This document shows positions 7,115-8,985 of a DNA stretch of 64,000 bases, one piece after another (the stretch's first letter is position 1; the number at the start of each line of letters is the position of its first letter). The DNA comes from Salipiger bermudensis (GTDB lineage Bacteria > Pseudomonadota > Alphaproteobacteria > Rhodobacterales > Rhodobacteraceae). Position numbers and translations under genes: made by a program. Below the pieces are notes generated by a model, which ran no database searches, had not been told where the DNA came from, and saw nothing but the letters and a program-made list of their open reading frames with translations. The stretch is taken from contig NZ_JAHVIA010000004.1 in assembly GCF_019801965.1 (NCBI RefSeq), positions 310,001 through 374,000 of the forward strand, given 5' to 3'.

Positions 7115-7147
7115 GGGCGCGGCACCTCACGGTGCCGCGCCCTTTTC
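7115..7147 (+). terminator. Intrinsic terminator of pntAB
   Basis: A perfect 12-bp stem (GGGCGCGGCACC with its complement) closes a TCAC loop and runs into CTTTTCTT. It lies 43 nt after the pntB stop and separates pntAB transcription from the GTA cluster. Confidence 0.88.
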
Positions 7148-7216: not shown

Positions 7217-7245
7217 TTGACCGACCGCGCGCTCGGGCGTAGCTT
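7217..7245 (+). promoter_or_regulatory. Promoter-like sequence upstream of the GTA cluster
   Basis: TTGACC (7217-7222) and TAGCTT (7240-7245) are separated by exactly 17 bp, a good sigma-70-type spacing. A start 6-8 nt downstream would fall at or near the ATG at 7252, giving a leaderless or nearly leaderless mRNA. It is the best promoter candidate between the pntB terminator and g1. No transcript data are available. Confidence 0.5.
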
Positions 7246-7251
7246 CTGCAG

Positions 7252-7365
7252 ATGCTGGACAAGCCGCGCGCGGCCCCCGGGGACAGGCCCCCGAGGGGCT
7301 TTTTTGTTGCAAATGCACGGTGGCCTCGGGCGGAGACCCACAGGCAAGAAAGGTATCGAGCATGA
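7252..7365 (+). CDS. Possible 37-codon leader ORF of the GTA operon
   Basis: A short open frame starts with ATG right at the expected transcription start and runs through the terminator hairpin. It ends in a TGA that overlaps the g1 start (ATGA at 7362-7365). The predicted peptide begins MLDKPRAAPGDRPPRGFF and ends RQERYRA. The hairpin inside the frame and the ATGA junction would fit a leader peptide controlling readthrough into the GTA genes. Codon use is poor (AGG three times, CGA, TAT), so the frame could be fortuitous. Confidence 0.3.
   Translation: MLDKPRAAPGDRPPRGFFVANARWPRAETHRQERYRA
7273..7305 (+). terminator. Intrinsic terminator/attenuator in the GTA leader
   Basis: GCCCCCGGGG pairs with CCCCGAGGGGC, giving ten base pairs with one bulged A and a 6-nt loop. 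Six Ts follow directly (7300-7305). It lies after the promoter-like sequence and before g1, so a transcript begun at 7252 would end after about 50 nt unless antitermination occurs. It could also be the end of a tiny RNA gene. Confidence 0.7.
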
Positions 7366-7703
7366 TCCTGGTCCACCTCGAAGAGGAGATGTCGCGACTC
7401 GAAGACGAGCGCGACCGCATCGCCGACGTCCTCAGGGATCTCGGCGAGGACATCAGACGCCTCAAGGCGCAGATCGAAGACGGGAAGGCGGTCTCGAAGA
7501 CCGACGCGGGCAAGCTGATGAGCGATGTCCGCTACTGGATGAGGGCGTCGCATGAAACGGAGGCGCAGATCGCCAATGTCAGACGTAAACAGAAAGGGCT
7601 TGCCGGAGACTGGGCTCTCGATCTCGAACGCGCGCGCGATGAGATCGGGTGCCGCATGGCTCGCCTCCGCCGCTGCTGCGGTGCGGGAGAGCTTCCTGAG
7701 TGA
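7362..7703 (+). CDS. GTA gene 1, probable small terminase subunit
   Basis: First structural-cluster gene of the gene transfer agent, 113 aa. In R. capsulatus GTA (RcGTA) the g1 product acts with the large terminase in DNA packaging. The sequence is charged and strongly helical: a coiled-coil-like start (HLEEEMSRLEDERDRI) and an AQIEDGKAVSK turn, then DVRYWMRASHETEAQI. Position, size and helical character match g1. The ATG at 7362 overlaps the stop of the possible leader ORF. The 3' end overlaps the chosen g2 start by 65 nt, a sign of coupled translation. Assignment is by synteny more than by motif. Confidence 0.72.
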   Translation: MILVHLEEEMSRLEDERDRIADVLRDLGEDIRRLKAQIEDGKAVSKTDAGKLMSDVRYWMRASHETEAQIANVRRKQKGLAGDWALDLERARDEIGCRMARLRRCCGAGELPE

Positions 7704-8985
7704 GCTGAGCGAGGGGGAGTGCATGGCACTCCCCTTTCTTTTCGAGTTCTGGGCCATGCCGCACCAGTTGCCGCCCGAGGGTGACTGGCGCTCCTGGGTG
7801 ATCATGGGCGGGCGCGGCGCGGGCAAGACCCGGGCCGGGGCGGAATGGGTGCGCGCTTGCGTCGAGGGGGCGCTGCCGCTGTCGCCGGGGCGCTGCCGGC
7901 GGGTGGCGCTGGTGGGCGAGACCCTCGACCAGGTGCGCGAGGTGATGGTGTTCGGCGAGAGCGGGATCCTCGCCTGCTCGCCGCCCGACCGGCGCCCCGA
8001 TTGGCAGGCCGGTCGGCGCTGTCTGGTCTGGCCCAACGGGGCCGAGGCGATGGTATTTTCTGCGCATGACCCGGAGGGGCTGCGCGGGCCGCAATTCGAC
8101 GCGGCCTGGGTCGATGAGCTGGCCAAGTGGAAGAAGGCGCGCGAGACCTGGGACATGCTGCAATTCGCGCTGCGGCTGGGGGAGCGGCCGCAGGTCTGCG
8201 TCACCACGACGCCGCGCAACGTGGGCGTGCTGAAGGAGCTCCTGGAGCTGGAGAGCACCGTTGTGACGCACGCAAAGACCGAGGCCAACCGCGCCAACCT
8301 CGCGGCCTCGTTCCTCGAGGAGGTGCGGGCGCGCTACGGCAACACCCGTCTGGCGCGGCAGGAACTCGACGGGGTGCTTGTCACGGATGTGGATGGGACG
8401 CTCTGGACTCAGGCGGTGCTCGAGCGGGCGCGTGGGGCGGAGGTGCCCGAGCGCTTCGACCGCATCGTGGTGGCGGTGGATCCGCCCGCGGGCGAGGGGC
8501 GCGCGGCGGATGCCTGCGGCATCGTGGTGGCGGGCGCGATCTGCGAGGGGCCGCCGCAGGCCTGGCGGGCCTGGGTGCTGGAGGATGCCAGTGTGCAGGG
8601 CAGCTCGCCCACCGGCTGGGCCGAGGCGGTGGCGGCGGCCTACGGGCGCTGGCAGGCCGACCGGGTGGTAGCCGAGGTCAACCAGGGCGGCGCGATGGTC
8701 GAGACGGTGCTGCGGCAGGTGGCGCCGCAGGTGCCGTTGCGCAAGGTCCATGCCACGCGCGGCAAGGCGGCGCGGGCGGAGCCGGTGGCGGCGCTCTACG
8801 AGCAGGGACGGGTGAGCCACTGCGGCGCGCTCGATGCGCTCGAGGAGCAAATGGGGCTGATGACGGTCTCGGGCTTTGCCGGGCAGGGCTCGCCCGACCG
8901 GGTCGACGCGCTGGTCTGGGCGCTGAGCGAGCTCATCGTGACGCCGATGCAGGGCTGGCGGCGGCCGGCGCTGCGGGTGATCTGA
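7639..8985 (+). CDS. GTA gene 2, large terminase subunit
   Basis: ATPase-nuclease that packages roughly gene-sized random host DNA fragments into GTA heads. The Walker A motif GGRGAGKTR is at about residues 57-65 and the Walker B-like AAWVDELAKW near 155. The C-terminal RNase H-like nuclease domain shows acidic motifs (VVAVDPPAGEG, and RVDALVWALSEL near the end). The start at 7639 gives 448 aa and suits the family, but other in-frame starts exist upstream (for example 7552) and the choice is not secure. It is followed not by g3, as in RcGTA, but by a gene on the opposite strand. Confidence 0.92.
   Translation: MRSGAAWLASAAAAVRESFLSELSEGECMALPFLFEFWAMPHQLPPEGDWRSWVIMGGRGAGKTRAGAEWVRACVEGALPLSPGRCRRVALVGETLDQVREVMVFGESGILACSPPDRRPDWQAGRRCLVWPNGAEAMVFSAHDPEGLRGPQFDAAWVDELAKWKKARETWDMLQFALRLGERPQVCVTTTPRNVGVLKELLELESTVVTHAKTEANRANLAASFLEEVRARYGNTRLARQELDGVLVTDVDGTLWTQAVLERARGAEVPERFDRIVVAVDPPAGEGRAADACGIVVAGAICEGPPQAWRAWVLEDASVQGSSPTGWAEAVAAAYGRWQADRVVAEVNQGGAMVETVLRQVAPQVPLRKVHATRGKAARAEPVAALYEQGRVSHCGALDALEEQMGLMTVSGFAGQGSPDRVDALVWALSELIVTPMQGWRRPALRVI

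Follow-up and report, generated by a model that had tools for sequence, protein, structure and literature searches.

Results

Anatomy of the GTA leader

The window, a stretch of 64,000 nucleotides from Salipiger bermudensis, carries a GTA operon that begins with g1 and g2 and is preceded by a leader with promoter and terminator elements (Table 1). An initial annotation of this DNA had named a promoter, an ATG, a hairpin with six Ts, a 37-codon frame and an ATGA overlap, and direct reading of the sequence finds every one of these elements in its place. As read from the open reading frames, the TGA of the leader frame (7363–7365) overlaps the ATG of g1 (7362–7364). Transcription presumably starts at about 7252, 110 bp before g1, and the GC-rich hairpin at 7272–7300 runs directly into TTTTTT, the build of an intrinsic terminator. 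The conserved stretch at 7341–7361 is the probable ribosome-binding region. By eye, the hairpin loop ACAGGC, which occupies 7283–7288 in the window and recurs in the related loci L002–L005 and L069, has letters identical to the conserved stretch ACAGGCAAGAAAGG that precedes the ribosome-binding site of g1.

Table 1. Features of the GTA leader and the first operon genes (window coordinates)
Feature	Positions	Strand	Remarks
Upstream-gene terminator	7115–7142	+	12-pair stem followed by TTTTCTT; before the GTA promoter and outside the gate
−35 element TTGACC	7217–7222	+	direct reading; TTGAC conserved in relatives
Promoter spacer, 17 bp	7223–7239	+	GCGnnCGnT motif, 5 of 6 letters here (by eye); candidate site of the GafA C-terminal domain
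−10 element TAGCTT	7240–7245	+	direct reading and aligned leaders
Initial transcribed element ATGCTGGAC	7252–7260	+	consensus of the relatives ATGCTRGAMGARRTGGGC
Open frame, 37 codons	7252–7365	+	ATG at 7252–7254; spans the hairpin; judged no gene
Terminator hairpin	7272–7300	+	−23.4 kcal/mol including tail; covariation, fixed-rule count, folding
Terminator T run, six Ts	7300–7305	+	direct reading and aligned leaders
Conserved stretch 5' of g1 (ACAGGCAAGAAAGGTATCGAG)	7341–7361	+	by eye in aligned loci
g1, presumed small terminase, 113 aa	7362–7703	+	without Pfam match; precedes g2 as RcGTA g1 does
g2, large terminase of the GTA	7552–8985	+	Terminase_6N and Terminase_6C

Judged by sequence, the leader elements are unremarkable in the window alone and clearly beyond chance once they are compared with relatives. 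A sigma-70 consensus scan of 19 kb returned no sites against a mean of 1.3 in shuffles; the window promoter has 8 of 12 consensus matches by our own count, and the scan threshold was 9. Terminator-like sites in 19 kb numbered 8, with 5.7 expected. Folding of the whole leader (7247–7365) was shuffle-like (z −0.30) and that of 7247–7306 hardly more stable than shuffles (z −1.02), and the hairpin piece 7271–7308 gave −23.4 kcal/mol (z −2.63), with 1 of 200 shuffles equally good. As an alternative antiterminator fold we could discern by eye only a weak GGGC-GCCC pairing, and the full leader had no extra stability. A known Rfam RNA family was rejected as an identity for the leader, where none attains its gathering cut-off: the Rfam scan of the window gave no matches, the best overlap scoring 17 bits against a cut-off of 75.9.

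Conservation and covariation in related GTA loci

We scanned public genomes for the g2 terminase and took the best 80 of 583 relatives, which together with the window gave 81 loci. These best 80 of 583 range over Salipiger, Ruegeria, Roseovarius, Sulfitobacter, Aliiroseovarius and Rubellimicrobium, and the nearest match to the window among them is from S. bermudensis, at 95 percent. Most loci share a common plan ahead of g1: in the aligned leaders TTGAC, a spacer with TTTGCGnACGGTnTCnCG, TA at −10 and ATGCTRGAMGARRTGGGC from about +1 are followed by a hairpin of the form CGGCCCCGGGG...CCCGGnGGCCG and then TTTTT. By eye, the gene upstream of the leader varies between lineages while this plan repeats.

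The regular expression used to recognise leaders demanded TTGAC, TA and a loose GCTRGA core, left the hairpin free and matched 70 of the 81. Alignment A1 holds 62 of these 70, with L002, L003, L004, L005, L011, L016, L021 and L038 omitted for a poor hairpin or tail; because these eight poor-looking leaders were left out, the covariation count leans toward structure. TTGAC stands in 62 of 62 aligned leaders but was required by the selecting expression; it was present in 72 of 99 anchored loci when the search did not demand it. Within the element ATGCTRGAMGARRTGGGC the G/C/T/G positions are invariant in the 62 rows, whose choice had loosely demanded this core. A sigma-dependent pause, with TGCTAGA read as an extended −10, was rejected; it fits the A form (43 of 62 rows) and fails the G form (19 of 62).

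The aligned hairpin shows clear covariation: 7 of 10 pairs have two-sided changes that keep the pairing, and 0 of 500 shuffles were as good (62 leaders, uncorrected for kinship). Paired cells make up 95.3 percent of the aligned hairpin and fall to 23.6 to 55.8 percent when the pairing is slid by 1–3 columns.

With a fixed rule for a terminator (a hairpin of −12 kcal/mol or lower immediately 5' of a T tract and downstream of the promoter), one was found in 68 of 76 recognisable leaders. The 76 comprise the 70 recognised by the promoter pattern, 62 of them with a terminator, and six recognised through the leader model described below, 6 of 6 with a terminator, the model itself favouring the hairpin and so biasing these six; in the other five of the 81 loci no leader was recognised. 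Counted from the presumed start, hairpin ends fall between +38 and +53 (median +48), the middle 80 percent of them at +47 to +50. As controls, the fixed rule passed 38 of 723 random spans and none of 16 other TTGAC-N-TA sites. A wider rule, applied to the whole stretch before g1 and also catching terminators of the upstream gene, found a terminator in 68 of 81 loci; the opposite strand gave 5 of 81, shuffled sequences 2, 2 and 5 of 81, and spans further upstream 2 and 3 of 79. One control of the wider rule went less well, the g2 coding span giving 11 of 81, above the shuffles, the other strand and the upstream spans. In Ruegeria-type leaders (L018, about 2771–2810, and like loci) we noticed by eye a second conserved stretch after the terminator, TCTCGTGCGGAGA...CACGCATGAGG, which could pair around the region before g1.

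The central proposal of the initial annotation, that the leader holds a promoter and a terminator laid out with the geometry of a transcription gate, is borne out by the alignment, the covariation and the family model, which show these elements to be conserved ahead of g1 in related Rhodobacterales. Its further proposal of a leader ORF coupled to g1 did not survive the comparison, as the coupled frame is unconserved across leaders. Among 68 leaders with the element, the first codon is ATG in 56 and AAG, ACG, CTG, TTG or GTG in 12, and the frame runs for 5 to 165 codons, sometimes stopping inside the hairpin and ending in no fixed relation to g2 or g1. These 68 leaders thus hold no conserved translated leader ORF of the kind that a leader-peptide attenuator calls for.

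Placement of the leader across the family

A covariance model of the leader finds a sole strong place in the window's own genome, the window itself (E 7e-10; next best E 0.05). Applied to a family draw of 198 genomes, nearly all of different genera, with a match threshold of E 0.01, the model matched 140 of 198, and the g2 protein was found in 174 of 198. The leader lies 320–530 bp upstream of g2 on the same strand in 113 of the 150 genomes with a g2 place listed, and 37 of 150 model hits, 20 strong and 17 weak, do not stand before a listed g2. Strong matches (below 1e-6) were obtained in 125 genomes: 105 stand before g2, G061 is broken by a contig end, and the remaining 19 are without a listed g2. 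We opened 11 of these 19 together with G061 and found damaged GTA genes directly after the leader in seven, g1 and then the contig end in one, a leader at the contig end in one, and remnants in two. Among 46 viral contigs with the +1 element, all 31 with a model match have GTA genes, and the other 15, which lack a match, have none at E 1e-10 in the fetched part.

Two genomes illustrate what becomes of the leader when the GTA is lost. In G141 (L123) it now leads into another gene, which we take to be cysE-like, and in G095 (L125) the hairpin is interrupted inside by an inserted stretch, presumably insertion-sequence-like. Leader copies without a GTA look like leftovers. The alternative that the initial annotation had offered, a stand-alone tiny RNA gene, is unlikely, since each strong copy that was inspected proved to be the leader of a GTA, part of a GTA remnant or located at a contig end. 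In a class-wide draw of 240 genomes, model matches were confined to the window's own genome, one of two other family members listed in the draw and, weakly, two genomes outside the family, L174 (G332, E 2e-5) and L175 (G308, E 9e-5).

Loci without a terminator

Under the fixed rule 13 of the 81 loci are without a terminator, mostly in the window's own clade. No terminator was found in L002–L005, L011, L021 and L038, L014 narrowly misses the energy cut-off, and no leader is recognised in L012, L015, L019, L055 and L077. A g2 tree of 79 of the 81 rows (L039 and L080 were excluded for too little protein), with 12 loci labelled terminator-less and L014 counted as having one, needs at least six terminator changes and places 11 of the 12 in a 20-row group with the window. 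In this tree L002–L005 (Salipiger, Citreicella) are sister to the window and S. bermudensis; by eye, they keep the ACAGGC-loop hairpin and miss the T run. The S. bermudensis locus L069 passes the terminator rule with a weaker tail. Conservation of the hairpin in relatives, to which the initial annotation had tied its reading, holds for the family at large and for L069, but not for the terminator in L002–L005.

The GCTGGA core is kept in 9 of the 12 terminator-less loci (by eye), and GafA control therefore seems independent of the terminator there. Among 36 family loci without a model match, a terminator lies in the span in 11; eight of these are more than 400 bp before g2 and are therefore probably the upstream gene's. 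By eye, leader hairpins of differing sequence are present in L149, L154, L156, L159, L167 and L170, and most others of the 36 have none. The gate is common, not universal, and is being lost in the window's clade.

A link between a consensus −35 and the terminator appeared strong when counted by loci (63, 9, 8 and 19 of 99; 13 loci without an anchor and 5 duplicates removed, the near-duplicates L143 = L019 and L145 = L012 retained, and the anchors of L005, L154 and L167 misplaced as judged by eye), but it is not independent of kinship and was dropped. A kinship-aware comparison gave about 2 pairs in the same direction and 0 in the opposite one, of 6.

GafA and the promoter spacer

The window's genome has a single DUF6456 match, which lies in a GafA-type frame of 384 aa and is the only portion of that frame to be identified; the domain also matches the Caulobacter control genome. 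Across the family draw, DUF6456 was found in 178 of 198 genomes, with 122 of the 125 strong-leader genomes having GafA compared with 56 of the 73 others (Fisher p 5e-6, uncorrected for kinship). The spacer motif coincides at one register with the GafZ site GCGCCCG-CTGGCGC given in PMC11150451, at p about 0.005: 1110 of 200000 shuffled sites and 70 of 20000 column shuffles were as good.

In R. capsulatus, the C-terminal part of GafA is described as binding a fragment with the −35, the −10 and the start, and the N-terminal part as binding fragments that flank the promoter on both sides (PMC9638019). The transcription start and GafA binding are placed within 76–125 bp before g1 in PMC6363796, and the presumed start here, 110 bp before g1, agrees with this. 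GafA is reported to act through RNA polymerase omega in PMC9638019, whose main text speaks of neither terminators nor antitermination. In the window's genome we saw by eye a TTAAC-N6-GTAAC sequence (L120, 732–747) that starts 88 bp before the gafA start codon; PMC6363796 describes TTAAC-N6-GTAAC as a CtrA-type site for gafA.

Discussion

Lambda Q and phage 21 Q are factors of late-promoter antitermination. Like those systems, the locus described here has a sigma-70 promoter, a short leader and an intrinsic terminator before late genes; in the aligned leaders the terminator lies between the promoter and the first late gene, and the window's genome encodes a candidate factor of the GafZ type. 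If GafA is loaded from the candidate site in the promoter spacer, this would be a further likeness to Q, whose binding-site position is cited in PMC11150451. In contrast to the Q late genes, the operon here is domesticated, and GafZ is stated to have no sequence or fold likeness to Q (PMC11150451).

The closest parallel is the Caulobacter GTA, as described in PMC11150451. There GafY with IHF recruits polymerase and is needed for initiation. GafZ binds in the region separating −35 and −10; that paper gives evidence that it moves along with polymerase and suppresses termination, so that it probably takes the enzyme through a terminator located after the first gene. The locus studied here shares with it the GTA operon, a GafZ-type domain, GCGnnCGnT letters between −35 and −10 and a terminator between the promoter and most of the operon, and GafZ has one target there (PMC11150451). 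The two differ in that the Caulobacter terminator consists of three 150-bp repeats after the first gene, whereas the window's is an ordinary hairpin and T run before the first gene, about 48 nt from the presumed start. In Caulobacter, moreover, the −35 is degenerate, the first start codon lies at +251 and GafY and GafZ are separate proteins (PMC11150451), whereas the window's −35 is near-consensus and a single protein, GafA, stands in place of the two. R. capsulatus GafA is homologous to both GafY and GafZ, and Tran and Le suggested that it might have an unrecognised antitermination activity (PMC11150451).

The reading that we favour, with reasonable though far from full confidence, is that this segment controls the GTA operon as its leader and works as a lambda-Q-like gate at which GafA carries polymerase past a stop. 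A sigma-70 promoter with a near-consensus −35, able to fire by itself, would start the transcript at about 7252, and without an activator the polymerase would halt at 7300–7305, producing a roughly 50-nt RNA but no GTA mRNA. Once GafA is made, its GafZ-like C-terminal domain would bind the promoter spacer, the spacer-bound protein would join RNA polymerase at the start or immediately beyond it, and polymerase so modified would pass the terminator and continue through the operon; the logic would be that of the lambda Q system at the late promoter. The comparisons above show the anatomy of the leader, its conservation and covariation, its fixed distance, its single strong copy, its close link to the GTA, its presence alongside GafA and the match of its spacer to the GafZ site. 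On this reading the terminator would also work in the cell, GafA would be the antiterminator, and the element from +1 to +18 would take part in loading or pausing. We counted the single strong leader match in the window's genome in favour of the gate, as it parallels the one target of GafZ (PMC11150451). The GTA genes are probably switched on by polymerase passing the stop, and not only by initiation.

A bolder form of this reading, which we offer tentatively, would place control chiefly at elongation. The promoter would fire in every cell and yield the 50-nt RNA, the rare producers would be those with enough GafA to load and pass the stop, and the element from +1 to +18 would be a new loading or pausing site of the GafZ type, its core kept after decay of the terminator.

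We hold other explanations of the terminator to be less likely. It is unlikely that it merely damps leaky transcription, with GafA boosting initiation, elongation unaltered and ordinary read-through sufficing. The action through omega described for R. capsulatus GafA (PMC9638019) would suit such an arrangement, and the terminator-less loci still keep g2; against it, most leaders listed have a hairpin of about −20 kcal/mol or stronger with a T run, which should halt the majority of transcripts, and GafZ, a homologue of GafA, stays with the moving polymerase and gets past a terminator (PMC11150451). We give little credence to the idea that GafA only initiates and leaves the terminator to a different factor, be it an RNA-binding protein, a ligand or a small RNA. 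Although conservation of the element from +1 to +18 is close to that of the terminator (its core loosely demanded in the choice of rows), as might be expected of a binding site in RNA, no clear alternative antiterminator fold stands out, the full leader is shuffle-like, no Rfam family reaches its cut-off, and the promoter site is already accounted for by GafA.

The chance is slight that the RNA of about 50 nt is a small regulatory RNA acting elsewhere and that GTA read-through is incidental to it. Many small RNAs are built in this way, from a conserved 5' part and a terminator, and the late promoter of phage lambda gives rise to a similar short RNA that is likewise terminated, but no clearly GTA-independent copy was found among the strong matches before g2 and the 11 of 19 opened genomes. 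Control of the terminator by a leader peptide whose translation is coupled to g1, the strict form of the initial model, is very improbable: the ATG in 56 of 68 leaders and codons 2 to 4, whose variation falls mainly on third positions and leaves Leu, Glu or Asp in place in most rows, speak for it, and against it stand the non-ATG starts in 12 of 68, lengths of 5 to 165 codons, stop codons within the hairpin of some leaders, the lack of a fixed end, and an ATG at or next to +1 that leaves no room for a ribosome-binding site.

The proposed leader gate would be new as far as the literature searched goes, with the proviso that such a negative is no proof, and GTA antitermination is already known from Caulobacter. 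The remark in the initial annotation that no such leader had been described for a GTA holds for the leader terminator in the literature that we searched and is superseded for antitermination, which has been published for the Caulobacter GTA (PMC11150451). No description of a leader terminator or of attenuation at a GTA promoter was found in that literature, which was without most subscription papers and supplements, and the word terminator is absent from the main texts of the R. capsulatus GTA promoter papers PMC6363796 and PMC9638019. We looked for the R. capsulatus leader by way of a published primer, which gave a single match in another gene with the partner primer absent within 900 bases, and the published R. 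capsulatus g1-start pattern had 0 matches in 394 genomes. A further likeness may lie in the Bartonella GTA, for which antitermination is reportedly the subject, by its title, of work by Korotaev et al. in eLife in 2025.

If an always-on promoter with a stop about 48 nt downstream is the gate, the restriction of GTA production to few cells could be reduced to a simple measurement. The suggestion of Tran and Le for R. capsulatus GafA would, if the gate is real, become a family-wide prediction with named sites, and GTAs would appear to have kept the late-gene switch of their phage ancestor.

Reduced GTA loci

In four loci from four genera (L128, L129, L130 and L131) the GTA is reduced to the leader, g1 and a fusion of g2 with the last gene, all with the same joint. 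The fusion unites the first ~190 residues of g2 with residue 650 onward of the 1299-residue last gene (window equivalents ~8119 and 20008), and g1 was found by tblastn in 3 of the 4. One old selected deletion and recurrent deletion at a short repeat would account equally for the shared joint. The frame is open across the joint, measuring, from stop to stop, 832–849 codons in three loci and 418 in one. L127 has a comparable reduced GTA with another joint.
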